The notes under the pieces were generated by a model. That model was not told where the DNA came from and searched no databases. It worked only from the letters and a program-made list of their open reading frames with translations. This document shows positions 21,297 to 46,017 of a stretch of 64,000 bases of DNA, piece by piece. The DNA comes from Cymodocea nodosa. Taxonomy: Eukaryota; Streptophyta; Magnoliopsida; Alismatales; Cymodoceaceae. A program made the translations under genes and the position numbers. The DNA lies in contig CM072340.1 of NCBI GenBank assembly GCA_036874045.1, positions 8,695,001 through 8,759,000 on the forward strand. The letters run 5' to 3'. Position 1 is the first letter of the stretch. Every line of letters begins with the position of its first letter.

Positions 21297-22277
21297 GCTC
21301 AAAGATTTCTGAAACCTATAGTTGGCATATGTGAATTCTGTAATTTGGAAGGTCATGACATTTCCAATTGTTTGAAATTAAGACGATTGCAGATGGTTAG
21401 ATCACAAGAACAACAAATGAATTATATTCAATATAATAGAATTGAGTATGAGAATCCTATAGTTTACCCAACTAACGGTCAGTTTAAAACAAGTAATATG
21501 TTGAGAGATAAGGAAGTTTGGGATAGATATGACAAACTTGAGCGTAGTTTAGAGTAAAACATGGACAAACTGGATCAATATATATATCAGCAACAAGAAG
21601 TCAACCAATTAAATTATAGGGAAGAATATTCAGAACCTAAAATCGATATCACATATGAAACGGAAAAAATCATAATGAGAATTGATCAAAAATTGAATGC
21701 AATGAGACTAGATGATCTAGGAAGAGAGCTACAAGCATTGGATGAATTAACAATGAAATTTCAAGTTATACAATAGGAAAACACAAATGAAAACTTTAGT
21801 GTTGAAGATTTGCATAATTTGCAAGATATACAGACAAAAGAAAATACCAAAGAAATAGAATTTAAAGAATGTAATTTAAGACTGAAAATAATTGAAGATC
21901 AAAATCATGAAAATGAAATACAACATCATGAAAGTAATGAAAATTTGGAAGATGTATATATAGCATTAAGATCTAGAACTGATATTCCACCAAGAATTCA
22001 AAAAGAAAGTAATGTGAAGGTGGATAAGAACAAAATTCAAAATCATAATGAAAATGTAATATCTGAAAACTTAGAAATCAATGAAGAAAAATCTGAATTT
22101 GAAAATGAGATTAAAAATGATCAAAATAATGAACTAAAAGAGAAAGAACCTTGTAAATCACAATCATTAACACCTTATCTTGAAAGATTACAACAAATAA
22201 TTCTTGAAAAAAGAGAAAAAATTAGAGAAATTTTTGAAAAAGTACAACTTAAGATTCCTTTATTGGAATTATTGTAG
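21297..22277 (+). pseudogene. Gag zinc-knuckle/tail of H1, right segment
   Basis: Continues the frame begun at 7459: QRFLKPIVGICEFCNLEGHD and ISNCLKLRR give an intact CCHC knuckle. The tail follows with stops at about 21555 (TAA), 21773 (TAG for CAG) and 22275 (TAG at the gag/protease boundary). With the M2 insertion the gene is dead. Confidence 0.87.
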
Positions 22278-22280
22278 AAA

Positions 22281-23267
22281 ATGTCACCTTGTGCTAAATT
22301 TCTTAAGAATTGGTGTACTAAGAAAAGAGAGCAAAAAGTTTTAAGGAAAGTTTTTTTAGTTGAGCAAAGTAGTTCCCTATTTTTGCCACAAATTCCTAAA
22401 AAGTTATCTGATTTAAGAATCCTTGTTATATCATGCACCATAGGAAATACCATTCTAGAAAGAACCTTATTAGACCTAGGTGCAGGTATAAATGTTATGC
22501 CTAGTGATATATTTACATCCTTAGGATTAAAAGGCTTAATCCCTACTAAGACTATCATTCAATTAGCTGAGAGAAGTATAAGATACCTTAGAGGAAAAAT
22601 AGAAGATGTCCTAATTAAAATCAAGAACTTCATATTTCCTATTGATATTGTGATTTTGGATTCCCAACAAATTAAGCATCAAAATCATGATACATCTTTA
22701 ATTTTGGGAAAACCATTTTTAGCAGCATCAAGGGCTGTTATAAATTGTAAAAGTGGAGTGATGAAATTAGCATATGATAATGAGGATACTCAATTAAACA
22801 TTTTCAAACTAGAAAAATTTAAGTTAAAAATGTCCTTACATACTATAGATTTTTTAGAGGATGAAGGAGATATGCTAGATGATGTGATTCAAGAAGAATT
22901 AAATAGGTAATTAGATTCTGAAACTTTAGAAGTGAAAGCATAGATGTAGAAGGAGATCAAGAAGAGGATAATATAGAAGATGAAAATGTAAAATTAGGAG
23001 CTCTAGCTTCTGATGGTCAACATTTAGATTTAAAACATTTACCTTCTGAATTAACCTATATATTTCTGAAAGAAAAATGAACATGTCCAATCATTATTGC
23101 ATCAAATTTAAAAAAGGAGCAAATTTCTAAATTAAAAGATGTAAAAACTTATAAAGAGGCAATAGGATGGACTATGGCTAATATAAAAGGGTTAAGTGCA
23201 ACTTTATGCTGTCACCACATATATTTAGAAGAGAATGTTAAACTAGTTAGAATTCTTGAGAGGAGAT
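22281..23267 (+). pseudogene. Protease and start of RT of H1
   Basis: MSPCAKFLKNWCTKKREQK, then DLGAGINVMPSDIF and LILGKPFLAASR give an Athila protease. The acidic linker (FLEDEGDMLDDVIQEE) follows and a TAA at about 22908 ends the open part. RT leader sequence (CHHIYLEENV) can be followed to 23267, where C2 begins, so RT, RNase H and integrase are not present in this copy. Confidence 0.83.
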
Positions 23268-24506
23268 TGTTAGGAATTTTGTTTTGATGATGAATGCTTT
23301 ATTAACATTTTAAATAAGTCTAAATAATATTTTCTAAGTATAATAGTCACGTAATTAAATATTGACAAGATATCGAAAAGTTTCATTTAAAATTTCAAAT
23401 AGTTAAAGTTTTCAAATAATTAGATTTTCAGATAGTTAAACTTTCGGATAGTTAACGTTTCAATTTATTCGAAGAGTTATGTTAAAAACTCATATAGTTA
23501 AGTTATCTACACGTGTTTTTAATGTTTTAAGTTGTCACGTGTTTTCCCTATGCGTTTAGTAATGAAAATCAAAAAGTTAGATAACTGTTCGAGTTTTTAT
23601 ATGCATGGATAGATAACTGTTTGAGTTTTATAAAATGACTAATGAACAAATAAGTTTTCTTTGTTCAGTCACATGTTTTGTAAGTGCAAAAACTCGAAGA
23701 GTTACAAATAAGTGTCTGGAGTTTTTACAATACTTAAAGGATAAGTGTTCGACTAAAGCGGTGACTTAGAAGATATTCTACAAATCTCCAAGAAGATAAA
23801 GTTTATGTGAATCTATGAGTGGAAATCATGAAAATTTCAAAATGATAATGGACAAACTGGAAAATTCAAAAAGATAGTGGAAATCGTGGATAATTTGAAT
23901 TAAAAAAAAAAATAGTACGGGGATTACGGATTATGGATTAAGTGGATGAACATGCTGAACGTGAAGTCAAAGTTCGACTACTAAAAATAGAGGATATGAG
24001 CTGCATTACAATCATCCTAATTACAATCCCTAATCAAGATCAAGTTTGAATATTCAATCCCAAATCTCAAATATCTAATCTGAATATTCAACTACATATG
24101 AAATCTAGAAAAATTCTCCAACATCAGAAGAAGTTCGAAATTCCAAGCAATTTCAGAAAAGGAGCTACAAACATAAGAAGTCTAGAAATTCAACAACTAG
24201 AGAAGAGATACAAAAGCTGAGTAAAAAGAAAGAAAAGGAGCTACGTGCATAAAGATCAGGTTTCATACAATTCAAAATTAGCTTTGAATAAGGACTTCAT
24301 TTTTATTTTAATTGTATATCAGACATTACTATATCAAAACCGACAAGAAGGAAATTGAGCTGAAAAGATATTGTAAATTCTTTCTTTAAAGTTTATAAGG
24401 AATAGAATTTTATTTACGAGTGTTTTGTGCTCTTGTTTTATCCACTAGTAATTTTAATTACTAAAGACACAATTCACCCCCCCTCTTGTGATACAACAAT
24501 CCTACA
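23268..24506 (+). repeat. 5' LTR of C2 (1239 bp)
   Basis: Starts TGTTAGGAATTTTGTTTTGA and ends AACAATCCTACA. G-boxes lie near 23508 and 23536. GGATAGTTA and CGAAGAGTTA motifs (23400-23720) echo motifs of the Athila LTRs. Confidence 0.85.
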
Positions 24507-27223: not shown

Positions 27224-29028
27224 TGTTTAGAATGAAAAAGTGCATATTATTAACGGTTAAATGATGGTTAATTGCATAATATTTAGCTTATCATATGAGA
27301 ATTAAGCCATTATGTTATAATTGCACTGTTATATGCTTTAATTGAAGAATCTGCTTAATTTTGGGGAATTAATGTTAATTTAGTACATTTATGAACTGTC
27401 GCTAAATTGCAGGCTGTGAAATTCTTAAGTATCCGAAAATGCATTTGAGCATCGGATAGTTATACCTGTAACTCTCCGGAATGTTATTTTATGTTTAAAC
27501 TGCTGCTGACACGTGTTGAGAGCTGGTAAATTTACTTACATTATAACTCATTAAGTTAGTATAACTGCACGCGTTGAGTTACATGAAAATACACTAAGGC
27601 AACGCGTTAGGTTAGCGTTATAAACTTAAGTTGTTATTTTTGCACATGTTTTATAGTTAAATCAACGAAGGAAGTCCGTTGAGTTATCTGTAACTCCATG
27701 GACTATATATTTTCTAATATGCCACTGTAGTGGTTGTAGAAACAGATAGTTGGAAGGAAAAACCACATTTGCACATATCACGCAGGAATTCAATCGCGTA
27801 GGGAGAAAGAAATCATCGTCGTTAATCTGAAGGAAGGAAATCCAACCGACCATTCAAGCAGAAGTAGTTACCATTGAAGAAATATAAAAGAAAAGAAGAA
27901 AAAAAAGAAAGAGTGTGATCGATGGACGGCCAGTGTATATAGAGGAGGAGCACCGAGCTTTCTGCAGACAGTATCGGCGATTCTCTGAAGTATCACACCA
28001 ACCATTGTATCACCACCATAATCACCAATCATCGGAGGTCTGTGAGGATACTTGCCTGATGTCAGGTCGATTCCGAGCCAAACACAGTGTCTGACAAGCG
28101 CCGACTCATATTTCAAGAGATCATAAAGCTTTTAGCCTTGGCTTCGGGTTGATGCCTGTATGCTGAAGAGGAGAACATCTTGCAATTCTGGACTCGCGAT
28201 TCTATAGGGAGAGGAGATAGAATTGTAAGTGGTTCAATTTTCAGTGGTGTAATCGCATTGCAAGTAATGTCAAAAGTATTTACTGTCAAATGAAATTACT
28301 TTACATTTCACCTTTCGCCCATCACATCAAAACAAAAATACCAAAAACAATTTATCTTTGTTTGTATATTGTATTTGAGTGTTGTATTGTTGGTGTTGTA
28401 TCGTGATTAATGTTATCTGTATCAATTTTATGATTGTTTTATGTTAGTTTTAATTTTACAGTTTACTGAAATTGGTTCGTACAAAACAACTTAAAGATTT
28501 TAATGGTTATTGTTTGAATCATCTGAATGTTAGTATTGCATAATGATAAATCCAATGTTAACTAGCATTAAAAAGCTTAATTGATGTTATTTACAATCTG
28601 TGGAATCACCCAATGGTTGGCCGAATTCCTCTGTAATTAGCAGTATTATAAAGAAGAGACAGGCTCGTGGAGTTAACTTAAGTCCACGAGGATAGTCTGT
28701 TGAGTTATCCATAACTCAACCAACTTAGTCCGTTGAGTTAACTATAACTCAACGGAGTGCTTATTGAATATAAATTTGAATTGTTTACAATCAAACATTT
28801 CTTAAATTCGTTAGCAATTCCCTATGGGATCGACCTATACTTGCACACTGATACAATAGACATTGTGAACTTGCTGTTAAAGTACAAATTGGAATTAATA
28901 TCTAAATTGTATTAAAAGTTGTTTGTTTACTTCTAAAAGAAAGAATAGGCATAAAGATAAATTAACTAAGTAAAAATAGAAGTAACAAATCCAAGTTTTT
29001 CTAGTGTAGTGTTGGGAAAACATGAACA
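27224..29028 (+). repeat. 5' LTR of P (1805 bp)
   Basis: TGTTTAGAATG ... ATGAACA. U3 is shorter than in A and M2: only one G-box (27510-27515) remains and about 27535-27650 is homologous to the copia C1 LTR. TATA at 27704-27712. CGTTGAGTTA/TAACTCAACG palindromes at 28672-28760. The minus-strand frame 27868-28116 is the recurrent antisense LTR frame. Confidence 0.93.
27704..27712 (+). promoter_or_regulatory. TATA box of the P 5' LTR
   Basis: GGACTATATATTTTC, conserved with LTR A and the P 3' LTR. The GCCACTGTAGTGG palindrome about 10 bases on lies where transcription would start. Confidence 0.6.
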
Positions 29029-29035
29029 AGTTTTA

Positions 29036-29053
29036 TGGCGTTGTTACCGGGGA
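29036..29053 (+). other. tRNA-Asp primer binding site (P), followed by an ATTGA microsatellite
   Basis: TGGCGTTGTTACCGGGGA, three transitions from the perfect site. Directly after it (29053-29083) ATTGA is repeated about six times, whereas element A has one or two, so a small expansion has occurred in the leader of P. Confidence 0.88.
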
Positions 29054-29152
29054 ATTGAATTGAATTGAACTGAATTGAATAGATATAAGCAACTGTTAGA
29101 GCTGTTTCATTTTAATAGTCAGAGTTGTGTATTTTCTTCTGTAATTGAGAAT

Positions 29153-31109
29153 ATGGCATATGCTTATGCTCAAAGATTTTTGAAACCTTTAATTAGCATA
29201 TGTGAATTCTGCAATTCTGAAGGACAACATTTCTGATTGTTTGAAATTGAGACATTTACAGATTGATAGATCCCATGAACAACAAATGAATTATCCTCGA
29301 TATAATAGAGCCGAGTATGAGAATCCTATAGTTTACCCAACTGATGGTCAGTATAGAATGTGTAATATTATGAGAGACACTGAAGTTTGGGATAGCTATG
29401 ACAGACTGGAGCATAGTATAGAGCAAAATCTGGACAAACTGGAATACTTTGTGTGTCAACAACAAGAAGTCAACCAATTAAACTATAAGGAAGCATATTC
29501 AGAACCTAAACAAGATATAATTTACGAAACTGAAAAAGTCATAAAGAAAATTGATCAAAAATTGAATGCAATGAAATTAGATGATCTGGAAACAAAATTA
29601 AAAGCATTAGACAAAAATGCAATGAAAATACAAGTTTTACAATAGGACAATGAAAATTATAATGTTATAAACCTGCACAACTTGCAAAATATACAACAAA
29701 TAGAAAACACAAATGTAAGAGAATTTAAAGAATGCACTTTAAAAATAAAAACAATTGAAGATCATAATCACGAAAATGATATACAAAAACATCATGAAAG
29801 TAACGAAAATCTGGAAGATGTATGTGTAACATTAAGATCTGGAACTGATATACCACCAAGAACTCAAAATGAAAATGATATGAAGGTGGACAAGAGTAAA
29901 AATCAAAATGATAATGAAAATGTAATAGCTGAAAATCGAGAAATCACTGAAGAACAATCTGAATCTGCAATTGAAGCTAAAAATGATCAAACAAATCAAT
30001 TGAAAGAAAAAGAGTCTTTGAAATCAAAATCTTTAGCACCCTATCCTGAAAGATTACAACAAACAATTCCTGAAAAACAAGAAAAAATAAGAGAACTTTT
30101 TGAAAAAGTAAAAGTTAACATTCCTTTGTTAGATCTATTGCAGAATATGCCACCTTGTGCTAAATTTCTAAAGGATTGGTGTACTAAGAAAAGAGAGCGA
30201 AAAGTTCTTAGAAATGTCTTTTTAGTTGAGCAAAGTAGTTACCTATTTCTGCCACAAATTCCTAAAAAGTTATCTGATCCTGGAATCCCTGTTATATCAT
30301 GCACCATAGGAAATACCATTCTAGAAAGAACCTTAATAGACTTAGGTGCAGGTATAAATGTTATGCCAAGTGATATATTTGCATCCTTAGGATTACAAGG
30401 CTTAACTTCTACTAGTACAGTTATTCAATTGGCTGATAGAAGTATAAGATACCCTACAGAAAAAATAGAGGATGTCTTAATTAAAATCAAGAATTTTATA
30501 TATCCTATTGATATTATAATTTTGGATTCCCAACAAATTAAGCATAAAAATAGTGATACATCTTTAATTTTGGGAAGGCCATTTTTAGCAACATCAGGGG
30601 CTGTTATAAATTGTAAAACTGGAGTAATGAAATTAGCATATGGTAATGAGGATACTCAATTAAATATTTTTAAACTAGAAAGGTTTGAGGAGTTAGAAAT
30701 GCCCTTACATACCATAGACTTTTTAGAGGATGAAGGAGATATGTTAGATGATGTGATTCAAGAAGAATTAAATAGGCAAATCAATTTTGAAACTTTAGAA
30801 GAAAGTGAAAGCATAAATATAGAAGGAGATCAGGAAGAAATTAATTTAAAAAATGATGATGTTCAATTAGGAGCTCTAGCTTCTGATGGACAGCATTTAG
30901 AATTAAAACATTTACCTCCTGAATTAACCTATATATTTCTGGAAGATAAACAGACCTGTCCAATCATTATTGCTTCAGATTTGAAAGAGGATCAAATAGC
31001 TAAATTAAAAGAGGTAATAAAAAGTTATAAAGAAGCAATAGGATGGACTATGACTGATATAAAAGGGTTAAGTTCAACTTTATGCTGTCACCACATATAT
31101 TTAGAATAG
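29153..31109 (+). pseudogene. Zinc-knuckle/gag tail, protease and RT leader (P)
   Basis: ATG at 29153 (MAYAYAQRF) starts the frame. A 2-base loss at about 29224 shifts it inside the knuckle, which is therefore broken in this copy. The tail continues (TAG at 29643) and from 29682 a 475-codon frame runs through TLRSGTDIPPRTQN, the protease (DLGAGINVMPSDIF, LILGRPFLATSG) and the acidic linker to a TAG at 31107. No stop separates the gag tail from protease here (CAG where M2 and H1 have TAG), so gag tail and pol were one polyprotein in the ancestor. No capsid domain is encoded before the knuckle. Confidence 0.88.
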
Positions 31110-32506
31110 AATGCTAAACCTATTAGAATTCCTAAGAGGAGATTAAATCCAAACCTTAAGGAAGTAGTCAGGAAGGAAATAGTTAAATGGTTAGATAATG
31201 ATATAATTTATCCGATTTCTGATAGCTCGTGGGTTAGTCCAATCCATGTAGTTCCCAAGAAATCAAGATTAACAATTATTAGGAATGAAAGTCAAGACTT
31301 GATACCTACTAGAATTCAATCAGGCTGGAGAGTATGTATAGACTATAGAAAGCTGAATGCTGTGACTAGGAAAGATCATTTTCCCTTACCTTTTATAGAT
31401 CAAATGCTAGAAGATTAGCAGGGCAAGAATATTTTTGTTTCCTAAATGGGTATACAGGGTATAATCAAATTCCAGTAGCATTAGAGGATCAAGAGAAAAC
31501 AACTTTCACCTATCCTAATGGAACTTATGCTTTTAAAAGAATGCCATTTGGATTATGCAATGCACCAGCTACCTTTCAAAGGTGTGTGCAGGGCATATTT
31601 ACTGGAATGACTAATGAATTTTTAGAAATATTTATGGATGATTTTACTGTATATGGAAACTCATATGAAGTGTGTTTAAGCAATTTAGACCAAATATTAA
31701 AACGTTGTGTGGAAAAAAAATCTGGTTTTAAATTGAGAAAAATGTTACTTCATGGTTAAACAAGGAATAGTCTTAGGGCATGTTGTTTCTAAAAAAGGGT
31801 TGGAAGTAGATAAAGCTAAAATAGAAGTAATTTCTAATCTACCAAAACCTAAATCAGTAAAAGATATTAGATCATTTCTAGAACATGCTGGTTTTTATAG
31901 AAGATTTATTAAAGACTTTAGCAAGATAGCTAGACCTTTAACTAATCTATTAAAAGATGTTCCATTTAACTTTGATAAAAATTGCAAGGAAGCATTTTTT
32001 AGACTTAAGACTAGCTTAATTTCAACTCCTATAATTCAAGCACCTAATTGGAACCATCCATTTGAATTAATGTGCGATGCTTCTGATTTTGCTGTAGGAG
32101 CAGTGTTAGGACAGAAAATAGAAAAATCTCCTAGAGTGATTATTTATGCAAGCAAAACCTTAAATGATGCTCAAGTTAATTACACGACTACTGAAAAAGA
32201 ATTATTAGCTGTTGTGTTTGCTTTAGAAAAGTTTAGATCATTTTTGATTGGAGCTAAAGTAATAGTATACACGGATCATTCAGCTCTAAAACATCTAATA
32301 AAGAAAAAAGAAACTAAACCTAGATTGATCCGATGGATATTATTATTGCAAGAATTCGATCTAGAAATTAAAGATAAAAAAGGTTGTGAGAATGTAGTAG
32401 CAGATCATTTATCAAGATTACAAATAGAAAAATCAAATATTGAAATTAAGGATAATTTTCTTGATGAACAATTAATGACCATCAACACAATGCCTTGGTT
32501 AATTAC
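31110..32506 (+). pseudogene. Reverse transcriptase and RNase H (P)
   Basis: RT sequence from RRLNPNLKEVVRKEIVKWL through [20 protein letters not shown] (FMDD box) and RNase H ([24 protein letters not shown]). Compared with M2: an A is lost at about 31410, an A is gained in a run of A at 31712-31719, and about 11 bases (ATGCAGACATA) are missing near 32496. Each shifts the frame. Catalytic residues are otherwise present. Confidence 0.9.
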
Positions 32507-33784
32507 TTAGTTACTGGTTTAACACCTAAGGATTGGAATAGACAGGATAAGAAATTGTTTTTCTCAAAAGTAAAATATTACTATTGGGAAGACCATTACT
32601 TATATAAGAAATGTCCTAATCTGGTTTTAAGGAGGTGTGTTCCAAAAACTGAATATTCGAGCATATTGTCTTTCTGTCATGACCAAGCTTGTGGAGGACA
32701 TTTTGGTTCAGGGAAAACTGCTGCAAAAATTCTGCAATGTGGGTTTTATTGGCCAACACTATTCAAAGATGCTCATAAATATTGCTTAAGTTGTTTAAGA
32801 TGTCAACAAATAGGAAGAATATCAAAGAGGAATATGATGCCTCTAAATCCTATTGTTGAGGTTGAAATCTTTGATGTGTTGGGAATAGATTTTATGGGTC
32901 TATTTCCTATATCTAATCAATTTAATTACATATTGTTGGGAGTGGATTATGTATCTAAATGGATAGAAGCTATTCCTACAAAAACTAACGATAACAAAGT
33001 GGTAATACAATTTATAAGAACAAATATATTTGCCAGATTTGAAATACCTAAAGCTATTATCAATGATAGAGGAACTCATTTCTGTAATAGAAGTTTTGAA
33101 GCCTTAATGAAGAAATATGGAGTAAACCACAAAATTGCAACATCATATCATCCGCAAACAAGTGGACAAGTAGAAAGTGCAAACAAACAAATTAAATTAA
33201 TCTTGGAAAAAGTAGTAAATCCTACTAGAACAGATTAGGCTAATAGATTGATTGATGCACTTTGGGCTTATAGAACTGCTTATAAAACGAGCTTAGGTAT
33301 GTCACCTTTTAGGCTAGTATATGGAAAAAGTTGTCATTTACCTGCTGAAATAGAACATAAAGCTTATTGGGCATTAAAAACTCTGAACACTAATTTAAAT
33401 CAAGTTGCTAAAAATAGGAAAATGCAACTAATTGAATTAGAAGAATTTAGAAATGAAGCTTATTCAAAGACTGTAAGAGAAAAAGAGAAAATTAAATTCT
33501 GGCATGATAGAAAAATTATTCCTAAAAACTTTGAAATAGGACAAGAAGTATATCTTTATATGGCTAGACTCCATAACCATCCAAGAAAATTAAGATCTAG
33601 ATGGGCAGGACCTTACATAGTTCGAAATGTTTATCCTTATGGAGCTATTGAAATTGAAAATCCTAAAAATCAGAATATATTTAAAGTAAATGGACAAAGA
33701 CTTAAACCTATTCTAAAAACACCAAAAAGCTCCTTTGGAATTATAGAAGAAATCGGAGTAGAGGACTACTCGAGTTTTACTTAG
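32495..33784 (+). pseudogene. Integrase (P)
   Basis: [15 protein letters not shown] and CLSCLRCQQIGR give the zinc-binding domain. GIDFMGLFP, NDRGTHF and SGQVESANK hold D, D and [21 protein letters not shown] and [12 protein letters not shown] form the C-terminal part. One TAG (33236-33238, TGG in M2) interrupts it. It inserts element cDNA into the genome; in this copy only that one stop prevents full translation of the integrase segment. Confidence 0.9.
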
Positions 33785-34493
33785 TAAGAAATTAGTTTGT
33801 ATGTTTATTTATATATATATATAAAATAAATAAAATAAAAAAACATTAAAAATATATATAAAACATAAAAATAGTTGCGGTTCAACCGATTGGATCCATC
33901 GGTATGGCCAGAAAATTAAAAAATATTTAGGTTTGACCGAAGCGTAGCATCGGTATGACCAGAACATTAAAAAAATATTGGTTTTACCGAAACATAGTAT
34001 CGGTTAAATCGGAAAAAAAAATTGTATATTAATTTTAAGAAAAAAATTTTGTTTTATCGAAACATAGTATCGGTTCAACCGAAAGAAAGATAAAAAAATT
34101 AAAAAAAATATTTAGGTCAAACCGAAGCATAATATCGGTTAAACCTGTAAAAAAAAAAAAAACAGAAAAACTATTCTCTGTAATATTTTTATTATTATAT
34201 TTGCTTGTACAAGGAGTTCGTTGAGTTACGCTTAACTCAACGAGCTTACTCCGTTAAGTCTTGAGTTAGTCAACGAGCTTATTCTGTTGAGTTACCTGTA
34301 ACACAACGGAGTACTGTAGCTAAGACCGCGGATAAAATAGTAATAGTTGGTTCGGGAAATGACCCGATTACCCGCCTAAACTTAGTGCTTATTTAAATTA
34401 AAACCTAGGGTTTTGGGGGCATTATCCGACAAATCATTTAGAATCTAGAATAGTAGAAATTAGAGTGATTACGTGCTATTGTGTAACTCCACG
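33785..34493 (+). repeat. Integrase-ORF3 spacer: ACCGA...TCGGT tandem repeats and CGTTGAGTTA palindromes (P)
   Basis: 33785-33870 is AT-rich simple sequence. From about 33875 to 34150 at least five imperfect units of 40-65 bases contain ACCGAAACATAGTATCGGTT or variants, able to form small hairpins. 34211-34320 holds three inverted CGTTGAGTTA/TAACTCAACG pairs. 34321-34493 precedes ORF3 with no other motif seen. The order is the same in M2 (15548-16092). Confidence 0.75.
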
Positions 34494-36720
34494 ATGATGA
34501 AGATGACGCTTGAATTCTAGGAAGATGTTGTTGATACATCAGAATTTCTGAAGGAATCAGAAGAGTGGCACACGCGGTAGAAGATTAGAAATACGACAAG
34601 AGAGAAAGAGCTACTGAAGGTAGAATCAGAACTTTTCAAGTTGAGAAGAGATTTAGTGGATATGGATATACGAATACCTCAAATAATGGAAAAACGAATC
34701 AGAATAGCAACAGAAATAGTTGTAAGTAAGGAAAGACAAATAAGGCCAAGTAGTGAAGTTGCCCTAGAATTAATCCAGCGTAAGTCCCAACTCTGGTTCA
34801 AAAGACGAATCTGTAGACAAGCTAAACGGGTGATCTGGGAGCAAGAAAGGAAAGCAAATGAAGAGGCAACTGAAGAACGGGAGGAACCAACTACTGAAAG
34901 ACCTATTCCTGAGGAGCAGCAGTCTGGACCTTCAGTTCCACCATTTAAGCCATTAACACGAGCAGAAATGATGGGGCCTTCGACTGAAGAAGAAATAAGA
35001 GAATTTGCAGAACTGGTTCAAGTTGGAAAAAACCAAGGAGAATCAGAAGATTTGGCAGTGGCTAAAGCACATCTGGTGTTTGATGCACTGTACAAAAAGA
35101 GGGCTGTAAAAAAGTTGAAAGCCCAATATAAAATTAAAGTAAAACAGCATCAAGAAGCTACTACCAGAACTGCTGTTAGAGATGCTGCAAAAGAAGCTGA
35201 AGCTGGTCCTTCGAGACCAGCAATTATTGGAAGAATTAAACAGGAAGAGCCAGTACCTGTGGTTCGAAAGCCTGTAGAGCCTATTTTTGTAGATTTAATT
35301 TTAGAAGATGAAGAGAAAGAACAGGCACAACTAATCAGAAAAAAGAAAGAAAAAGAAAAAGTGCCTGATTATAAAGAAATTAAATCTAAAGTACCAATTT
35401 TTACAAGGCCTGTGGAGCAGATTTTTATTAACCTGCTATCCGAATCTGACGAGCAGGAGGAGCAAAGAAAAGAAAAAAAATCAGGTTGAAATTAGTTTGC
35501 AACCTGTACAAGAAGAAACAGAAATTAGGGCAGAAACTGAATTGCCCGTGACTCCATCCCAATCTGTTACAGAATCAGAAAGAACAGTAACAGAATAGAT
35601 TGGTAGTCAAGAGGAAAAAGAAAGAGTAGAAAATGAAGAGGTTGAAAGAAGCCATTTGGACAAAAATAATTTCACAAATTCCACTGAAGAGCAAGAAACT
35701 CTTTAGTAAATTATGGAAATAATTCAAGATAGAGTGGAGAGTTCTGCTGGCTCACCACCACAGACAGAAGCAAAAGCAAAAATTTAGGAATCTGAAGAAA
35801 ATGTCCAAATGCAGCCTATGCTAGAGGAAGAGCAAGAGCAAACCCCTCTAGAGCAACAAAGTCACCTTCCAGACCCGACTGAAACAACAATTTTGAATGA
35901 AGTACATTTTTGTAGTGAGGAAGCTTATATCAAATACCAAGAAATAAGGGGTTACGATATTATTTACAGTAGATCAGTAAATTGAGATGGAATGCAAGAA
36001 ATCAAAGATCTATTTGAATTCCAAGGTCTACTGCAATTTATATCTCACGATAGAGGGCATGCAGTATATGAGAATTTAGTGCCTTGTTTCTATGCAAATT
36101 TAAGAGAACGAGAAGGAGAATTAATTTCAAACATGGAGGAAGCTAATGTACAGATAACACCAGAGCTTCTCCACAACATATTTGGTTTAAAGAATGAAGG
36201 AACAAAAATTTTGGAGGATACAACTGTAGTTGAATGGACTGAGCAGCAAATTAAGGATTGTTTAGCTATCAATCCTGGTGTACCATTATTAAACAAATTG
36301 AAGCATTTAAATGGTAAAGCACACATGGTAGCTAACATTCTGATTAATAATGTCTATCAACGACAGGGCCATGACATAGAATTAAGTCAATTTGTCAAAT
36401 GGGCCACGTATGCAGTTGTAAATAAGATCCAAATAAATTGGTCTGCAGTTTTTATATCCAAGCTGAAAATAGTAAAGAAGAAATTATTTTATGGAGATTT
36501 GTTTCCACTACTGATGGTGGATAGTATTGATTTCACTAAATGGACATCAAAAAGGATAAGATCTAGAACCATTTCAATGAAAGAATACAAAAATTTTGTA
36601 GCTGCAGAATTAGCTGTACCTTCTAGAGAAATTGCAGGAGCAGTAGAGAGAATAAATCAATTAGAGCAACAATTAGAAAAACTCCAAAAGAAAGTAGATG
36701 AACTTAGGCATAGAGATTAA
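34494..36720 (+). pseudogene. ORF3: acidic/coiled protein fused to a plant transposon-protein (envelope-like) domain (P)
   Basis: From ATG 34494 or 34497 the frame has TAG at 34518 and 34578, then 283 open codons to 35489. That part is K/E-rich and predicted helical by eye, with IKQEEPVPV followed by PIFVDLILEDEE and later IFINLLSESDE. An extra A at about 35475 shifts the frame; stops at 35597, 35709, 35712, 35786 and 35983 follow. The C-terminal 242 codons (35992-36720) are open: VPCFYANLRERE, VQITPELLHNIFGLKNEG, GHDIELSQFVKWATYAV, and a coiled-coil end. It lies where Athila elements keep their envelope-like gene, but I see no clear signal peptide or membrane segment, so envelope function is not supported. 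Confidence 0.7.
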
Positions 36721-37363
36721 ATTGTATTGTTCGTCTACTTGTGTAAAATTGTATGAAATTGTATGATGTACTTGTAATGTAATTGATTCATATTAATGAA
36801 TATAATTTTTCAGATGTAATTTTCAAACTTATTTGAATGTGAAATGAATAGAATTTATTGAATATTATGTAATTTGTGGAACTTTATGAATATGTAACAG
36901 ATTTACAATTTACTGAATGATAGGATAACTGCTTAAAAATTTCTACATGTTATAAGGTAAAATGTAAATTCTGCATAACATAAAATGACCTGCAATTTAA
37001 ATCTTTATATAATGTTCAAATTTAAATGTATTTTAATCAAAATGAGGCATTAATGACATAGATTTAACTTTATTACAGTTAGCAGAATGACAAAAAAAAA
37101 AAAAAAAAAAACAGAATAGAAAACTTACGAGAGTGAAAATTAGAAGTTGCTAAGTGTTAACTCAATGAAGTAATTCCGTTGAATTAACCGTAACTCCACG
37201 AGGTCAGTAATATAATATAAGGTCACTCCGTTGAGTTATCTGTAAATCAATGAAGTTAGTCCGTGGAGTTAGTAACAGTAACCGACTGTGTTCTGTTGAG
37301 TAATCTGTAACTCAACGAGGTTAGTTCGTGGATTAAGTAGAACGGTTATTCTTTTAACCACAA
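36721..37363 (+). repeat. ORF3-gag spacer with palindromic motifs (P)
   Basis: No gene. AT-rich, with an A18 run near 37088. From 37155 to 37340 there are about six GTTGAGTTA/TAACTC(A/C)ACG motifs in opposing orientations. M2 lacks this spacer because of its capsid deletion. Confidence 0.65.
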
Positions 37364-37702
37364 ATGAAACTTCGTCAGTTTAGCGGTTACCAAAATTTGA
37401 AATTAGTAGTGGTACACGTACCCATTAAAACAGGAACCACGATGCACATTGCAAGACACGTTCTTGCAATGAGATTTATTCAATTTATGGATGTGCAGTA
37501 TATATATGAAACAGAATGTTATTTACGAGTTACCAGCACTTTTAAGAGAAAGGAGAAAGTGTTGGAGGAACTGGAAGGAGAAGCAGTTGATTCAACCTTC
37601 ATCCGACAACAAATATTTATAGAATGGAAAGCTTCAGACTGGTATGTAATTAATCTTCTATTATTTATTTATGAGCACATGGACTCGTTCTCTAAGCACT
37701 AA
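37364..37702 (+). CDS. Unrecognised 112-codon frame upstream of capsid gag (P)
   Basis: Open from ATG 37364 to TAA. I recognise no domain; the only visible features are basic and aromatic residues spread through it and a hydrophobic stretch near the end (WYVINLLLFIYEH). It lies between the palindrome cluster and the gag start, so it may be leader sequence or a chance frame rather than a gene. The M2 deletion removed the counterpart, so conservation cannot be checked here. Confidence 0.25.
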   Translation: MKLRQFSGYQNLKLVVVHVPIKTGTTMHIARHVLAMRFIQFMDVQYIYETECYLRVTSTFKRKEKVLEELEGEAVDSTFIRQQIFIEWKASDWYVINLLLFIYEHMDSFSKH

Positions 37703-37826
37703 ACGATTAGTAAGAACACCTATCCAGGAATTTTCATTGCAAAGGGGTACTTAAAAATTTTCTAAACTGAACTTTAACGAAATTCTTTAGGGTGTAGCTA
37801 ACCTTTCTTTAAAAGAGAACGTAGAG

Positions 37827-39014
37827 ATGGCTGCTCCAGTAGAAAAACCATTAGGAGAGATTCTGTATCCTGAATTAATTGATGAACCTTCATGTATTCG
37901 ATTGCCAAACTTTGAGGGAGATAGGTTTGAACTGAAATCTAATTATATTAGTCAATTGCCACATTTTCATGGATTAGAAAGAGAGGATGCCTATTATTTC
38001 CTTAGAGAATTTAACGAAGTTTGTCAAATGATGAGAATGCCGAAAATGAGTATAGATGCTATTAAACTTAGATATATCTCTTTTGCTTTAAAAGATACAG
38101 CTAAGAGATGGTTATATACTCTATCACTTGATTCAATTTCTACATGGACTGAATTTTGCTCTGTTTTTCTGGAAAAATACTATCCAAAGCATCAAACGAT
38201 TAAAAAGAAGAAAGAAATATTAATGTGTAGCTAAAAACAGGGTGAATCATTCTAAAAATATTTTGAAAGATTTAAAAATTTAATGACTCAATGTCCACAT
38301 CATGCAATGAGTAAAGCACAATTAATAGGCATAATTTATGAAGGCATAGATGTTTCAACGAAATCTTTATTAGGATCTACTTGTCAAAATGGATTTTTAA
38401 AATTATGTAGTGAAGAAGCATGGGCATATTTAGAAAATTTTGCAAAAAGAACTACACAGTGGGAAAATTCGGCTGAAGCTATTGCAGATAAAAGATTATT
38501 GCCAAGAGGAATGCATGAAATAGATTCCAATACTATGCTTGAGGTGAAATTAAATGAATTAACAAAGAAAATAGAAGAGTTATCATTAAATCAAAAGCTA
38601 GCAGAAAAGAATACAAACATAAATGACTTAGATATTATTTATGCTAGAAACCAGAGAGATAACTTAGGAAATTCTTATAATCCTAATTGGCGAAATCACC
38701 CGAATTTATCTTGGAAAAACAACAATTTCCAGGGAGGAGAAAATATAAATGAGAAGAACATAAGTTATGAAGTATTAATTAAACAAGGAGCTAGAATAGA
38801 GAAATTAGAAAACATAATCCAACAAGTAAACAATCGTCTAGAATTTATATTTGGAAATGTTGTAAATCAAAATCAGAATAGAAATATACCACTTAGACAA
38901 AAGGAACCAATGGAAGTTAGACCTACTAGAGGATTGCCAATACAAGCTATACCTAATCCTGTCAATAGAACGGTTAATGAAATTGATACCTCTTCTAGGA
39001 GGGCAGCTGAATGA
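37827..39014 (+). pseudogene. Capsid gag, located downstream of integrase (P)
   Basis: ATG 37827 starts MAAPVEKPLGEILYPELIDE, then the retrotransposon-gag capsid domain: YISQLPHFHGLEREDAYYFL, LRYISFALKDTAKRWLYTL and FLEKYYPKHQTIKKK. Two TAA codons (38233 and 38254, probably CAA before) interrupt it near GESF-KYFERF. The frame reopens at 38283 and runs through LPRGMHEIDS, a coiled coil (KLNELTKKIEELSLNQK) and NSYNPNWRNHPNLSWKNNNF to TGA 39012. In ordinary Athila Gag a CCHC knuckle sits just before YNP.WRNHPN; here that spot (DLDIIYARNQRDNLG) has no cysteine, and the knuckle is encoded instead at 29153. TTCTTTAG about 35 bases before the ATG could be a splice acceptor. Confidence 0.88.
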
Positions 39015-39206
39015 AGTAGCATATCTGAAGCAACTATCTGTATGTATATATGTTTTTATTTTTATTTTAAGTTAATAGTATCGTAGAGTTAATTTTTAAC
39101 TCAACGAACTTAGTCCGTTGAGTTATGCCTTAACTCCACGAGGGTGTGCAGTAGTTATGTTAATTTTTGTCTCTACTAAATTTTTTTTATTTTATAGAAT
39201 CGATAA
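39015..39206 (+). repeat. Gag-F-box spacer: palindromes and acceptor-like tract (P)
   Basis: 39080-39142 contains two inverted pairs (GTTAATTTTTAACTC and CGTTGAGTTA ... TAACTCCACG). The sequence then becomes pyrimidine-rich and ends TTTTTTTTATTTTATAG eight bases before the F-box ATG, a good 3' splice-site match. M2 has the same arrangement. Confidence 0.65.
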
Positions 39207-40346
39207 ATGGAATTAATGCAATTACCATTGGATACACAAAGGGAAATACTAAGTAACTTGTCAGCTAAAGATTTGTGCCAGATGTGTTGTGTATCAAAGG
39301 AAATTAAAGACTGTATTGAAGAAAAATATTTTCAGGGACTATAAGCTGTAAAAATGACTAAGATTAGAGATGGATTCATATGGAGGTCATTTAATCGTAG
39401 TTCAAATACCCATGAATATCTGGCTATGGAAGAAACTACTGGAACTCCACCCAATGCATTAGAAGGAAAGAGTCATATTATGGGGATAGATGAAGGATTA
39501 ATCATATACAAGACGAGACCAAGGTATGCAAGTTTATCATTACCTGAGATTTTGATAAGAAATCCTATAACAGGAGAAGAATGTAATATAGGAAGACCTA
39601 ATATATTTAAAGCACCAACTGAAAATTGTGGGTCAGCTTTAATATTTTCTGATAAAAATTCTACAATTCTTGAAAAATTATATTATTGGAGACCTACAGG
39701 AAATTGGGGTGAAGATTTATGCTTAAGTGTGTATAATTTTCTGAACAGATCTTAGAATGAAAACATTATAATATATCTAGGATAGAAATCATTAATTAAC
39801 CAAACACATGTCATACATGATGGTTATATTTATTTAGTCACGAAGATATCAATAGCATATAGATCTGATTTACACATAGTGAGCATAGACAGTTATGATG
39901 ATTATATAGAAATTTTACCTGTCCCGAGTGGAATAGCTAAACCACCATCTGAAAAATTTAATAAAATTCAAATAGGAATGTGGTATAATGAAAAAGATGA
40001 TCCTACTTTATGTCTGATAAGATGGTGGGATGAACTGATGAAATTTCAAATATGGATTATGGAAGACATGAATGAATGGAAGTGGGAAGAGGAGTATATT
40101 GAAATAGATGTAGAAATAGAAACTACTACATTACCCTAGAACCAAAAAGGATCCCTTTTTGCTTTACATATCATTAATGGTAATACACTTGTATTTGGAA
40201 TTTGTAATATATTGCATGTTTACAAATTAAAAAGGACCAAGAACTGCATTAAAACAGAATTAATAGCAAGAAGAACTATGCCTAAAAAGTTTGCTTGGAC
40301 TAATACATTTATTCCATTTGTTTCTACTTTTCAATCATGTTCTTAA
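39207..40346 (+). pseudogene. F-box/FBA gene, decayed copy (P)
   Basis: Collinear with the intact M2 gene from ATG 39207 (MELMQLPLDTQREILSNLSA) to TAA 40344-40346. Stops where M2 has sense codons: TAA for CAA at 39343, TAG for TGG at 39753, TAG for CAG at 39783, TAG for TGG at 40137. The open parts 39354-39755 and 39879-40139 show the FBA region (EILIRNPITGEECNIGRPN, LCLIRWWDELMKFQIWIM). By eye roughly 80 percent of residues match M2, similar to the other genes, so both copies descend from an element that already carried it. Confidence 0.85.
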
Positions 40347-42120
40347 GCTGTGATTTTGTGTGTTTAATGTTGTGTATTCTGCATTTATTTTTTAGAAAAA
40401 AAAGGAATTTTGAAGTTTTTCATGTTCATTTTATAAAAAACAAAAAAAAAAACAAAACAAAACAAAACAAAATATCAATCCAATTTGTTGGTATCTGTTC
40501 TGGGAAACCAAATGGCTTGCTTGTGAGCCACCAAAAGCATAGAAGCCTGGGTTCCACACAAGACACTGATTTATTAATACCTGTTAAATGTTATTTTGTT
40601 TTATATTCTGTGTTTATCTAGGAATGAAAAGTTTTTCAGAATCAAAAATCGGAATATGCAGAAGGAGATACAAATGACAAGGTATGTAACCAATTACTTA
40701 TCCTAAATTTTAAATCAAACAAAACTTTATTCATGTCTGCTACAATTACTGTACTTATTGTCAAATCTTTTACATTGAGGACAATGCAAAATGTAGGTAT
40801 GGGGGGGAGGTAATTAAAGTAACAGTCATGTAAGTTTGTTAATTAAAGGAATTAAAATGGTATTGCAAAGTTTTGAGGAAATTGAAAATTTTTATGAACT
40901 TGCTGTAACTATCTGATAATTGAGACTGTAAAATTTTTATAAACTGCTTGAATGTTATATTTAGAAGGCTATAGAAGATGCTATAGAATTTATTATTTAT
41001 GTAAATCTAGATATAGTATCTTATGATTTTTCTAAATTTCATGAGTTTAACAGTTTCACGATTTTAAAATGAAATCAAAATATTTAATGCTTAATCAGAA
41101 AATTATCTGAAGTCCTGAAGGAGCTGAGATGTGAATTCTAGATTAAATGAAACACATATGATGAAAGATACATTTACTTTGACTGATTGAACTTGTAGAA
41201 TGATTTATATGTAAATCTTATTAAACTACAGATAAAGTATGAACTTATTGTTATAGATTCATATCTTTAGTAAATGATAGAAGCAGGATTATATGAGATT
41301 GGTGTTTTACTACATCTGTATTAATGAAATACGTGCATATACAGTATGTGATTAATGTTTTGTTCTGTGTGTGCATTTATTTTATTTTTTATTTTTTTTT
41401 TAAAAAAAAAAAAAAAAAACTTGAGAGTTTATTGACTTGTTTGATCACGAGCCTTTTGTACTTGAGCAGATAGGTATGTAAGGATTGTTGACTTGAAAAA
41501 GGACTCTGAAAATCTAGCAACCTAAGATCTTGATCAGATCTGGGATTGTTGACTGAAAGCTCGTTACATGGGTACATTAGAAAGCTCTTGCATGATTCAA
41601 GCTTGTCAAATTAACTTTTAAAATACAAAAAAAAAAAAAACATATACTGTTCTGAAAAGATACAAGTGTTTTGTGAAATACAGATATCTTATGAATCGAG
41701 TATATTTTCTGTTATCTAGAATTGCTGAAATATGAATCTGGAATTGACTTGTGAAGTTGTTTAATGGAAATACAATTCTTTATTCTACTTGTCTTAATCA
41801 GATTGAATTGGATTGTACTTTAATTTGTATGTTGTTGAAATTTCTTCTAGAAAAACTTCTTGGAAAATTCAGGATTACAGATGATGAAAAGAAGAACAAA
41901 CGATAATATAATTAACACCTATATGAAGATGATATACTTTGTATGTAATTTACATATATTCTAAATATCTTTGTAGGTTGATTACTGAAACATACAGAAT
42001 ATATGTTTATGCTAAACAGAAGAAAAAAAACAAAAAAACAAAAGTGGGAGAATTAATTCTAACACTTTTTGAAAGACCAATTAATTAAATCTTAGTTTGC
42101 TAAGAGACTAGCAAAATTTA
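40347..42120 (+). other. 3' untranslated region of P with an internal purine tract
   Basis: No supportable gene. It aligns along its length with 9745-11522 of M2. AGGACAATGCAAAATGTAGG and GTATGGGGGGGAGG (about 40779-40812) look like a complete Athila polypurine signal 1.3 kb upstream of the LTR. A-rich runs at 40435-40470 and 41390-41420. Confidence 0.75.
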
Positions 42121-42133
42121 GGTATGGGGGAAG
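42121..42133 (+). other. Polypurine tract of P
   Basis: GGTATGGGGGAAG directly followed by the LTR start TGTTTAAAATG; primes plus-strand synthesis in this class of element. Confidence 0.9.
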
Positions 42134-43979
42134 TGTTTAAAATGAAAAATTGCATATTATTAATGGTTAAATGATGGTTAATTGCATAATATTTAGCTTA
42201 TCATATGAGAATTAAGCCATTATGTTATAATTGCATTGTTATATGCTTTAATTGAAGAATCTACTTAATTTTGGGGAATTAATGTTAATTTAGTATATTT
42301 ATGAACTGTCGGTAAATTGCAGGCTGTGAAATTCTTAAGTATCCGAAAATGCATCTAAGCATCGGATACTTATACCTGTAACTCTCCAGAATGTTATTTT
42401 ATGTTTAAACTATTGCTGACCTGTGTTGAGGGCTGGTAGATTTACTTACGTTATAACTCGTTAAGTTAGTATAACTGCACGCGTTGAGTTACCTGAAAAT
42501 ACACTAAGGCAACGCGTTAGGTTAGCGTTATAAACTTAAGTTGTTATTTTTGCACGTGTTTTATAATTAAATCAATGAAGGAAGTCCGTTGAGTTATCTG
42601 TAACTCCACGGACTATATATTTTCTAATATGCCACTGTAGCGGTTGCAGGAACAGATAGTTGGAAGGAAAAACCACGTATCACGTAGGAATTCAATCGCG
42701 TAGGGAGAAAGAAATCATCGTCGTTGATCTGAAGGAAGGAAATCCAACCGACCATTCAAGTAGAAGCAGTTACCACTGAAGAAATATAAAAGAAAAGAAG
42801 AAAAAAAAAGAAAGGGTGTGATCGATGGACGGCCAGTGTATACAAAGGAGGAGCACCGAGCTTTCTGCAGACAGTATCGGCGATTCTCCGAAGTATCACA
42901 CCAACCATCGTATCACCACCATAATCATCAATCATCGGAGGTCTGTGAGGATACTTGCTTGATGTCGGGTCGATTCCGAGCCAAACACAGTGCCTGACAA
43001 CCACTGTGAGGAGTGATCGCGTCGCGGGAAGGGAAGACATTTTCATCAAGCGCCGACTCATATTTCAAGAGATCGTAAAGCTTTTAGCCTTGGCTTCAGG
43101 TTGATGCCTGTATGCTGAAGAGGAGATCATCTTACAATTCTGGACTCGCGATTCTATAGGGAGAGGAGACAGAATTGTAAGTGGTTCAATTTTCAGTGGT
43201 GTAATCGCGTTGCAAGTAGTGTCGGAAGTATTTACTGTCAAGTGAAATTACTTTACATTTTACCTTTTGCCCATCACATCAAAACAAAAATACCAAAAAC
43301 AATTTATCTTTGTTTTTATGTTGTATTTGAGTGTTGTATTGTTGGTGTTGTATCGTGATTAATGTTATCTGTATCAATTTTATGATTGTTTTATGTTAGT
43401 TTTAATTTTACAGTTTACTGAAATTGGTTCATACAAAACACTTAAAGATTTTAATGGTTACTATTTGAATCATTTGAATGTTAGTATTGCATAATGATAA
43501 ATCCAATGTTAACTAGCATTAAAAAGCTTAATTGATGTTATTTACAATCTGTGGAATCGCCCAATGGTTAGCCGAATTCCTCTGTAATTAGCAGTATTAT
43601 AAAGAAGAGACAGGCTCGTGGAGTTAACTTAAGTCCACGAGGATAGTCCGTTGAGTTATCCATAACTCAACGAACTTAGTCCGTTGAGTTAACTGTAACT
43701 CAATGGAGTGCTTATTGAATATAAATTTGAATTGTTCTCAATCAAACATTTCTTAAGTTCGTCAGCAATTCCTTGTGGGATCGACCTGTACTTGCACACT
43801 GATACAATAGACACTATGCACTTGCAGTTAAAGTACAAATTGGAATTAATATCTAAATTATATTAAAGGTTGTTTGTTTACTTCTAATAGAAAGAATATG
43901 CATAAAGATAAATTAACTAAGTAAAAATAGAAGTAACAAATCCAAGTTTTTCTAATGTAGTGCTGGGAAAACACGAACA
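42134..43979 (+). repeat. 3' LTR of P (1846 bp)
   Basis: Close match to 27224-29028, including the copia-like U3 segment (about 42450-42560), the TATA box (42614-42622) and the palindromes (43615-43710). The main length difference is about 43 bases near 42995-43035, present here and absent from the 5' LTR around 28090. The single G-box of the 5' LTR has changed to CCTGTG. Confidence 0.93.
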
Positions 43980-44715
43980 CATGTGGTGACGGAAGTTTTT
44001 ACTATCAATAGAGATTACTATTACATTTCACCTTTCGCCCATTTTCATGATCATATCAAAACAAAAAATACCAAAAACAACTTATCTGTGTTTATAGTTA
44101 GTATTTGAGTGTTGTATTGTTTATTTTGTATCGTGATTAATGTTATCAATGTCAATGTTGTGAATGTTTCATGTTTGTTTGATTTAGAAAATAGAAAATA
44201 GTTTTACAGTTTACTGGTATTGAATCATTCCTAATACTTAAAGATTTCAATAGTTACTATTTGAAATATCTGAATGTTAGTGTTACTGAATGATAAATCT
44301 GATATTAACTAGCATTAAAGAGCTTAATGAATGTTATTTACAACCTGTGGAACCGCCCAATGGTTGGCCGAAATCCTCTGTAAATAGTAGTATTAAACTG
44401 GATAGATAGCTTTGTTGAGTTAATTCAATTCCACGATGTTAGTTCATTGAGTTAGCTATAACTCAACAAAGTGCTTACTAAATATATAAATTTCATTATT
44501 AAAAATAGAACAGTACACAATTCTTGCTCAATTCTCTATGGGATCGACCTATACTTGCACACAAATACAATATACATTGTGCACTTGTAGTTAAAATACA
44601 AATTGGAATTAATATCTAATTTATGTGAAAGATTTTTTGTTTACTTCTAAAAAGGAATTACTGAAAAGCATCAAGACAAATTAACTAAGTTACAAACAGA
44701 AGTTAACAAATCAAC
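43980..44715 (+). repeat. E3 5' LTR fragment
   Basis: Starts in mid-LTR at CATGTGGTGACGGAAG, the equivalent of about 6591 in H1, directly against the P LTR end. Palindromes at 44405-44470. The U3 half is absent. Confidence 0.83.
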
Positions 44716-44810
44716 CAAGTTTTCTGGTGTCGTTGCCAAGGAACTAAACAAGTTCTCTAGTGTCGCCTAAAAACCCAATCAAGTTTTCTGACGTCGTTGC
44801 CAGGGAATTG
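44716..44810 (+). repeat. Three tandem primer-site-like units (E3)
   Basis: Units of 33, 31 and 31 bases start CAAGTTTTCTGGTGTCG (44716), CAAGTTCTCTAGTGTCG (44749) and CAAGTTTTCTGACGTCG (44780). The first and third retain recognisable tRNA-Asp sites (44725-44742; 44789-44806, TGACGTCGTTGCCAGGGA). The middle one is decayed. Other copies have one. Confidence 0.85.
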
Positions 44811-44888
44811 AGTAGTTAAACAACTATAAGTGCTATTTTGTTTTAATAGCAAGAGGGGTATTGTGTGTTTTCTTCTATAATTGAGAAT

Positions 44889-45576
44889 ATGGCATATGCT
44901 TATGCTCAAAGATTTTTGAAACCTGTAGTTAGCATATGTGAATTCTGTAAATTGGAAGGTCACGACATCTCTGAATGTTTGAAACCGAGATGGTTGCAGA
45001 TGGTTAGAGCACATGAACAACAGATGAATTATATTCAATATAATAGAGCTGAGTATGAGAATCCTTTAGTTTACCCAATTGATGGTCAGCTTAGAATGTG
45101 TAATATGCTGAGAGACAATGAAGTTTAGGATAGGTATGACAAACTAGAGCATAGTTTAGAACAAAACATGGACAAACTAGAACAATATATGTGTCAGCAA
45201 CAAGAAGTCAACCAATTAAACTATAAGGAAGTATATCTAGAACCGAAAATTGATATTATATACGAAATTGAAAAAACTATAATGAAAATCAATCAAAAAT
45301 TGAATGTAATGAGATTAGATGATTTGGAAAGGAAACTAAAAGCATTGGACGAGTTTATAACGAAATTACAAGTTATGCAACAAGACAATACAAATGAACA
45401 CTTTAATGTTATAGATTTGTATAATTTGCAAGACATACAAACAATAGAGAATACTAATGCAATAGAATTTAAAGAATGCAATTTAAAACTAAAAATAGTT
45501 GAAGATCATAATCACAAAAATGAAATACAAAAACATCAAGAAAGTAATGAAAATCTGGAAGATGTATGTATAACAC
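44889..45576 (+). pseudogene. Gag zinc-knuckle/tail fragment (E3)
   Basis: MAYAYAQRFLKPVVSICEFC, KLEGHDISEC: an intact CCHC knuckle within the first 35 residues. TAG at 45127 (TGG in H1). The second part, from 45168, ends in the gag tail at LEDVCIT, where E4 begins. It confirms, as the fourth copy with this start, that no capsid precedes the knuckle. Confidence 0.85.
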
Positions 45577-45949
45577 TGTTGTGCGGAAAGATCAAACAAA
45601 CATGGAGCATCTAGGGGTGGCGTAGAGAAGAGATCTACGTGGAAGAGAAGATTGCGAGTGGAGAATTCGAAGAACAACAAATTTACGTGATTCCCTAACA
45701 TGGGTACGTCCACGGGTGATCAATCTATCATGATTCCTTGCTGTATGGTTGCTGATACAAAGAAGGGGGAGAACAAAATCAAGGGATGGTTTGGCATGGT
45801 ATCCCTTGGACGTGGATGACCCCTTACATATATAGCAGCAACGGTTGGTGATACCTAAAAGACAAGTTTGCCCCTATACAAATTATCAAAGAAATACAAC
45901 CATATTCAATGACACATACATATACTTGATGGAAGGCACACGCATCACA
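45577..45949 (-). repeat. 3' LTR of E4 (373 bp)
   Basis: Minus strand TGTGATGCGTGTGCC ... GCACAACA. Contains TATATATGTAAGGGG as the promoter-like region. Confidence 0.9.
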
Positions 45950-45964: not shown

Positions 45965-46017
45965 TTTCATCAATCTTCACCACGAATAGGTGATGGATCA
46001 CCAAGACCCAACTTGGG

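Follow-up and report, generated by a model that had tools for sequence, protein, structure and literature searches.

Does a retrotransposon have to carry capsid and nucleocapsid in one protein? Retroelements are taken to need both within a single Gag, which couples shell assembly to RNA packaging, and elements with a single Gag-Pol frame pose the further question of how capsid comes to exceed enzyme. Both questions are raised by a 64,000-nucleotide stretch of Cymodocea nodosa DNA (GCA_036874045.1, contig CM072340.1, positions 8,695,001 to 8,759,000; hereafter the window), an AT-rich (32% GC) plant-type nest of long terminal repeat (LTR) elements in which self-comparison resolves five copies (P, M2, A, H1, and E3) of one Athila-type Ty3/gypsy family. 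A first-pass annotation had proposed that gag is split and permuted in this family, with the zinc knuckle ahead of protease and the capsid domain behind integrase. Module order was tabulated for the five copies within the window, and the reading that we moderately favor is that the family encodes gag as two complementary frames and expresses capsid separately. A family that separates capsid from nucleocapsid would make both the coupling and the capsid excess testable.

A 5′ frame that opens with the zinc knuckle

The start of the 5′ frame was scored in the four copies that keep a leader (P, A, H1, and E3). Knuckle and TLRSG tail begin right after the primer binding site (PBS), as first described: the ATG lies at 29153 in P, 1231 in A (minus strand), 44889 in E3, and 7459 in H1, where the frame resumes at 21292. 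The distance from PBS to frame start is 100–117 nt in all four, counted on the printed leader sequences (the scripted value for H1 is 100). The PBS reads TGGCGCCGTTGCCGGGGA in copy A and takes altered forms in P, E3, and H1; its assignment relies on what we take to be the tRNA-Asp sequence. The frame begins MAYAYAQRFLKPxxxICEFCxxEGHDISxC (MAYAQRF in A), with the first knuckle Cys at residue 15 in A, 17 in E3, and 17 in H1 after joining of its two pieces. All four knuckle ligands (CX2CX4HX4C) are present in A, H1, and E3, and the knuckle of P is broken, its frame stopping past CX2CX4H. The motif was identified by eye and by alignment. Profile searches, which the first-pass annotation had recommended for both Gag segments, recognized the first part of the downstream capsid frame but not the knuckle piece of copy A, which has no Pfam match at E ≤ 0.1.

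No capsid precedes the knuckle in any of the four copies when 11 database Gags are compared with the whole window by tblastn (E ≤ 1e-3), and a relaxed capsid search of the four leaders gave nothing below E = 0.13; the space ahead of the knuckle is too short to hold a capsid. The frame continues through TLRSG, protease, reverse transcriptase (RT), and RNase H to integrase, and this capsid-less product would be made from genomic RNA. The M2 homologue retains an intact RT-RNase H-integrase zinc open reading frame (ORF) of 485 aa. The arrangement of capsid, knuckle, and protease in one frame, usual for Athila without defining the lineage, was encountered in none of the four copies.

Purifying selection supports a function for this frame. 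The ratio of nonsynonymous to synonymous substitution rates (dN/dS) is 0.29–0.44 in six of six pairs of the four copies, with every 95% interval below 1, upper limits of at most 0.70, and dS of 0.15–0.42; the six pairs share four sequences and are not independent. Three pairs include the knuckle and run from the start to about TLRSG (A/E3, 0.34; H1/E3, 0.29; H1/A, 0.44). The three pairs with P begin after the knuckle, at 29262, past the broken part of that copy (P/A, 0.32; P/E3, 0.38; P/H1, 0.40). Two to three stop codons per pair and gapped codons were dropped. These estimates argue that the knuckle-first frame was functional across the history of the family and is not the decay of single copies. 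A 5′ deletion in individual copies was accordingly rejected as the source of the knuckle-first start, which occurs in four of four copies under purifying selection.

A second Gag frame behind ORF3

The separate capsid frame that had been placed behind integrase and ORF3 was recovered with the 11 Athila-type Gags of the protein collection (best tblastn E = 1e-46, P0001), and its first part matches PF03732 (E = 4e-7). Its second part (38283–39011) and the counterpart in M2 have no Gag match in Pfam. Across the window, capsid matches of these Gags fall only at 37863–38996 and, within the remnant already suspected in M2, at 13051–13353; their remaining four matches lie in the TLRSG region. Nowhere else in the 64 kb did these searches detect an ordinary, capsid-bearing Athila Gag.

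M2 is flanked by a 5-bp duplication (ATAAG; CTTAT on the plus strand) that marks it as a separate insertion. It shares colinearity with P over 29286–42347, broken only by its own deletion (at 13362–13370, corresponding to about 36680–38488 of P), because of which only the C-terminal part of the capsid Gag, including YNPNWRNH, is retained. The knuckle-less capsid Gag follows ORF3 in both copies that keep this region (P and M2, n = 2), and its structure is thereby documented in two insertions. Copies A (cut at the window end), H1 (ending in RT), and E3 (with an internal jump) are uninformative on the downstream capsid of intact elements.

The absence of a knuckle from the downstream frame was borne out by alignment with five of the 11 Gags. 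All five relatives carry a CCHC segment between capsid and YNPNWRNHPN, spaced CX2CX4HX4C in four and CX2CX3HX4C in P0001; it is missing in P and M2, and the sequence on both sides of the gap is kept. The downstream frame further retains the post-knuckle YNPNWRNHPN, a coil, and an IPNP-like end (IPNL in M2), and the IPNP segment of P0005 sits shortly upstream of TLRSG. Judged by this alignment, the frame is nearly a whole Athila-type Gag minus the knuckle and the TLRSG-protease end.

The 5′ frame also keeps its own post-knuckle region, so that homologous parts of the two frames overlap. The term "permuted", which implied one gag cut in two, has to be given up on this point. The overlap makes a second gag with complementary losses probable: a history of gag duplication, or of a second acquisition, with complementary loss afterwards fits better than permutation. 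The frame after ORF3 would then supply the capsid domain, having lost the knuckle and the protease junction.

A different source for the downstream frame would be an independent element that inserted there, bounded by LTRs or a target duplication of its own. LTR-like arrays do lie on both sides of the block (37151–37343 and 39081–39142), but LTR similarity is confined to about 100–180 bp of array, the same array type precedes ORF3, and the order in M2 is identical on the F-box side. Reading of 36640–37900, with no dedicated search made, revealed no LTR ends, PBS, or purine tract. A complete nested element was rejected given the restriction of LTR similarity to the arrays, and we regard any separate insertion as very improbable.

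Is the capsid frame a working part of the family?

Selection on the downstream modules can be compared between P and M2. Their dN/dS is 0.48 (0.31–0.75) for TLRSG-protease, 0.21 (0.10–0.44) for RNase H, 0.48 (0.25–0.96) for integrase, and 0.48 and 0.27 for ORF3. The capsid tail, at 90% identity and with dN below dS though not significantly, gives a point estimate of 0.49, close to those of TLRSG-protease and integrase, and capsid is likely under selection.

Several observations weigh against two complementary, working frames. The interval for the capsid tail (0.24–1.10) spans neutrality, as does that for the post-integrase piece (0.52; 0.27–1.34). The capsid frame of P contains two in-frame TAA stops (38232 and 38253), and M2 lacks the N-terminal capsid half and has two stops in its remnant, so that no intact capsid ORF was seen. 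The full module order is visible in only two copies, both of one subfamily. The flanks of P carry no matching target duplication (GTAAA/CATGT); therefore, P may itself be a recombinant, rearranged at its ends. In ORF3 of P and M2 (34641–36720 and 13366–15400), dS is about 0.34 versus 0.09–0.17 in the flanking genes, which looks like a sign of mosaic ancestry through recombination between subfamilies. Knuckles also decay in ordinary relatives: the second Cys is absent, with the segment kept, in four of the six unaligned Gags (P0003, P0004, P0006, and P0008). Finally, the one database protein resembling the 5′ frame (P0012, described below) shows in Pfam a zinc knuckle alone, below cutoff, and may be a 5′-truncated gene call on a 2.2-kb contig.

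The missing target duplication of P, the mosaic ORF3, and the LTR-like arrays flanking the capsid block are what would be expected had a single recombination event between related elements put a decayed, never functional gag behind ORF3 in the founding copy from which P and M2 descend. We consider this improbable: M2 is an independent insertion with a target duplication and the same order, the knuckle-first start occurs in four copies under selection, and the capsid tail retains its high identity with dN below dS, if not significantly. The earlier claim that the arrangement belongs to the family and not to one rearranged copy accordingly holds for the knuckle-first start (four of four, under selection) and for the presence of the downstream capsid in two insertions, but less firmly for the complete order, which is seen in two copies with a broken capsid.

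The same uncertainty over selection on the capsid tail leaves room for a non-autonomous family that lost capsid and uses ordinary Athila Gag in trans, the P/M2 capsid being a passenger, or a dominant-interfering decoy, of one subfamily. Capsid-less plant elements are known, according to an excerpt of the Retand survey (PMC11963269); E3 seems wholly capsid-less; and the adjoining F-box ORF shows that the region takes up foreign genes. On the other hand, both copies keep the capsid frame, whose dN/dS point estimate resembles those of protease and integrase; the knuckle, kept by the 5′ frame, is lost here, as a division of labor predicts; and the ordinary capsid-bearing Gag that would act in trans was not found elsewhere in the window. 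We judge this explanation possible but unlikely, and continue with the two-frame reading.

Expression and the palindrome arrays

If gag is divided between two frames, capsid is probably translated from its own mRNA, with splicing and an internal LTR-like promoter as possible origins that we would rank about equal; the capsid dose would therefore be set separately from that of nucleocapsid-Pol. Joint particle assembly from separately expressed products, which we infer by analogy, would require contact between the two, either by way of genomic RNA or by their coiled tails.

Candidate signals are provided by a palindromic motif, TAACTCAACGAG, which occurs 79 times in the window (≤2 mismatches) against 4.06 expected, a count reached by none of 100 shuffles. 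Within the LTRs it is arranged in dyad arrays, one of which lies immediately 5′ of TATAAAT at 28769, and this segment (28655–28775) is a probable LTR promoter region as judged from its sequence. In the internal region of P, 12 of 12 motif matches fall in the three spacers before ORF3, capsid, and F-box; in that of M2, nine of nine fall in the two surviving counterpart spacers. Arrays with the core CAACG(G/A) occur family-wide, in the LTRs as well as in the spacer ahead of every post-pol ORF. No TATA-like match lies close behind the spacer arrays, the nearest being at 37499 before capsid, with none between 39142 and the F-box ORF. The LTR array is capable of strong folding as RNA (−47.8 kcal/mol for 110 nt), a value obtained without a shuffle control. 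The arrays might serve as internal promoters, might mark sites of RNA processing, or might be scars left when recombination added the individual blocks. Just ahead of the F-box ATG, P and M2 both keep a U-rich run that closes with AG (TTTATAG and TTATACAG), a possible splice acceptor. The sites recorded are 27547–27686, 28655–28775, 34217–34315, 37151–37343, 39081–39142, and 51868–51924, with a further cluster at 4546–5466.

In its fullest form, the proposal would describe an autonomous element that builds particles from a capsid-less nucleocapsid-Pol and a nucleocapsid-less capsid Gag, with copies of the LTR promoter palindromes driving or delimiting a separate transcript that sets capsid dose, and with a captured F-box protein, encoded in the same late gene block, acting on host defense. 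This combination is speculative, and we hold it to be rather doubtful as a whole.

Relatives and known systems

Both the TLRSG-protease region and the capsid/YNPNWRNHPN Gag are homologous to plant Gags of Athila type, a label that, for the mostly unnamed database proteins, depends on motifs we presume to be characteristic. The family shares with Athila, Calypso, and Diaspora a tRNA-Asp-type PBS, the order TLRSG-protease-RT-RNase H-integrase, a YNPNWRNHPN Gag, long LTRs, and a post-pol ORF. It differs from them in its capsid-less 5′ frame, the knuckle-less capsid Gag after ORF3, and the F-box ORF. Diaspora, by comparison, has a single 1892-codon gag-pol ORF with Gag core, CCHC finger, protease, RT, and integrase, and Calypso and Diaspora use tRNA-Asp (both from the available part of PMC1142308).

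With the knuckle-first product of copy A as query, 12 proteins were retrieved, the best being P0012 from a JGI metagenome, a distant relative (43% identity over 49% of the query) with a knuckle at residues 20–33 followed by TLRSG and a protease-like stretch (LIDLGAG) and no capsid. The knuckle is absent from the other four of the five sequences read among the 12. No relatives of P0012 or of the capsid piece were found in viral_contigs, and none of P0012 in genome_contigs. If the gene call of P0012 is not truncated, a knuckle-first layout is much older than this Athila-type family.

Plant elements without GAG resemble the present family in having a gag-pol frame without capsid. The Retand survey reports, in the excerpt available, that the GAG domain is missing from seven of 63 clusters and GAG together with AP from two, and BARE-2 appears among its references (PMC11963269). 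Unlike these elements, the family described here has a capsid frame elsewhere in the same element: capsid coding, broken in both copies, is present at 37827–39014 of P and in the M2 remnant, whereas a GAG-less element has none anywhere. If the two-frame reading is true, elements annotated as Gag-less may carry Gag after pol, and pipelines that rely on domain order could misfile autonomous elements as non-autonomous.

Foamy viruses (Spumaretrovirinae) serve as a model, with no membership claimed, in that their structural and Pol proteins are made apart; Pol comes from a spliced subgenomic mRNA and is packaged via genomic RNA (PMC7828637, in part). There, Gag is whole and Pol separate, whereas here nucleocapsid stays with Pol and capsid is separate. 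Orchid Ty3/gypsy elements, according to portions of two reports (PMC9289625; PMC7264820), carry an AlkB demethylase as an additional ORF and so resemble the present family in adding a cellular-type protein to a large element; here, the extra ORF is an F-box and lies beside a second capsid-type Gag. The section consulted of a 121-genome screen (PMC9289625) names no F-box.

Among the literature matches listed, which comprised titles and the beginnings of abstracts and included few subscription journals, neither a plant LTR element with capsid behind integrase nor an F-box ORF in an Athila element is described, and the available parts of PMC2633040 and PMC5718144 describe neither. Taken singly, the domains belong to known kinds; the matches listed describe neither the splitting of gag nor this module order.

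The F-box ORF and ORF3

The F-box ORF is the second unusual feature of the element and lies directly after capsid in both full-order copies (P and M2). The intact M2 ORF scores 40.3 bits with PF00646 (cutoff 20.5) and 14.5 bits with FBA_1, below cutoff; neither the protein collection (1155 candidates, E ≤ 1e-3) nor the PDB (E ≤ 1) yielded a homologue. Its P/M2 dN/dS is 0.79 (0.50–1.26). Some plant viruses encode F-box proteins that suppress RNA silencing, and this neighbor of the capsid frame offers a concrete candidate for a retrotransposon-borne counter-defense protein. About 90 bp past the ORF in P, an A-rich AAAAC run (40435–40472) might be left over from the capture of a polyadenylated mRNA.

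ORF3 was considered as a typical envelope and rejected: three pieces tested, short of the whole ORF, contain no strongly hydrophobic stretch (highest 19-residue hydropathy, 0.98).

Features of the window

Table 1. Coordinates of the copies and their modules in the window
Feature	Position	Strand	Remark
Element P, full span	27224–43979	+	self-comparison
P 5′ LTR (TGTTTAG...GAACA)	27224–29028	+	92.2% identity to 3′ LTR across 1861 columns; ends read
LTR palindrome array (TCCGTTGAGTTA..TAACTCAACGGA type), then TATAAAT	28655–28775	+	
Primer binding site, tRNA-Asp type	29036–29053	+	P
Knuckle-first Gag-Pol without capsid	29153–33800	+	several stops/shifts in P
Post-pol spacer: tandem repeats and LTR-like palindrome array (34217–34315)	33897–34320	+	
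ORF3, broken	34641–36720	+	second part matches PF20167 Transposase_32 below cutoff
LTR-like palindrome array ahead of capsid ORF	37151–37343	+	
Downstream capsid Gag: capsid, no knuckle, YNPNWRNHPNLSW, coil	37827–39014	+	ends before TLRSG equivalent
LTR-like palindrome array ahead of F-box ORF	39081–39142	+	then U-rich stretch, AG just before ATG (P, M2)
F-box ORF of P	39207–40346	+	4 internal stops
P 3′ LTR, purine-rich GGTATGGGGGAAG immediately before	42134–43979	+	self-comparison
M2, second copy of same element, nested in H1	7474–21291	−	5′ LTR and leader partly deleted
F-box ORF of M2, intact, 378 aa	11523–12659	−	PF00646, E = 2.5e-10
M2 remnant of capsid Gag, C-terminal part	12843–13370	−	two stops
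Copy A: 5′ LTR, PBS, knuckle-first frame	1–3482	−	cut by window end
H1 leader and start of knuckle-first frame	7350–7473	+	interrupted by M2
H1 continuation, knuckle to RT	21292–23268	+	
E3: partial LTR, PBS-like site, knuckle-first frame	43980–45575	+	

H1 is split by M2 at 7473/21292 and ends in RT near 23268. The internal region of E3 apparently passes directly from about P 29831 to about P 41747, with a nested copia element (45577–51078) in between; its two pieces (43980–45575 and 51093–55000) look like a short derivative with leader, knuckle-to-TLRSG segment, and 3′ end only, and no target duplication proving that they belong together was established. Farther along, an ORF on the minus strand at 61005–61562 contains a Malectin domain (PF11721, E = 1.2e-24) and probably represents a host receptor-kinase gene or a fragment of one.

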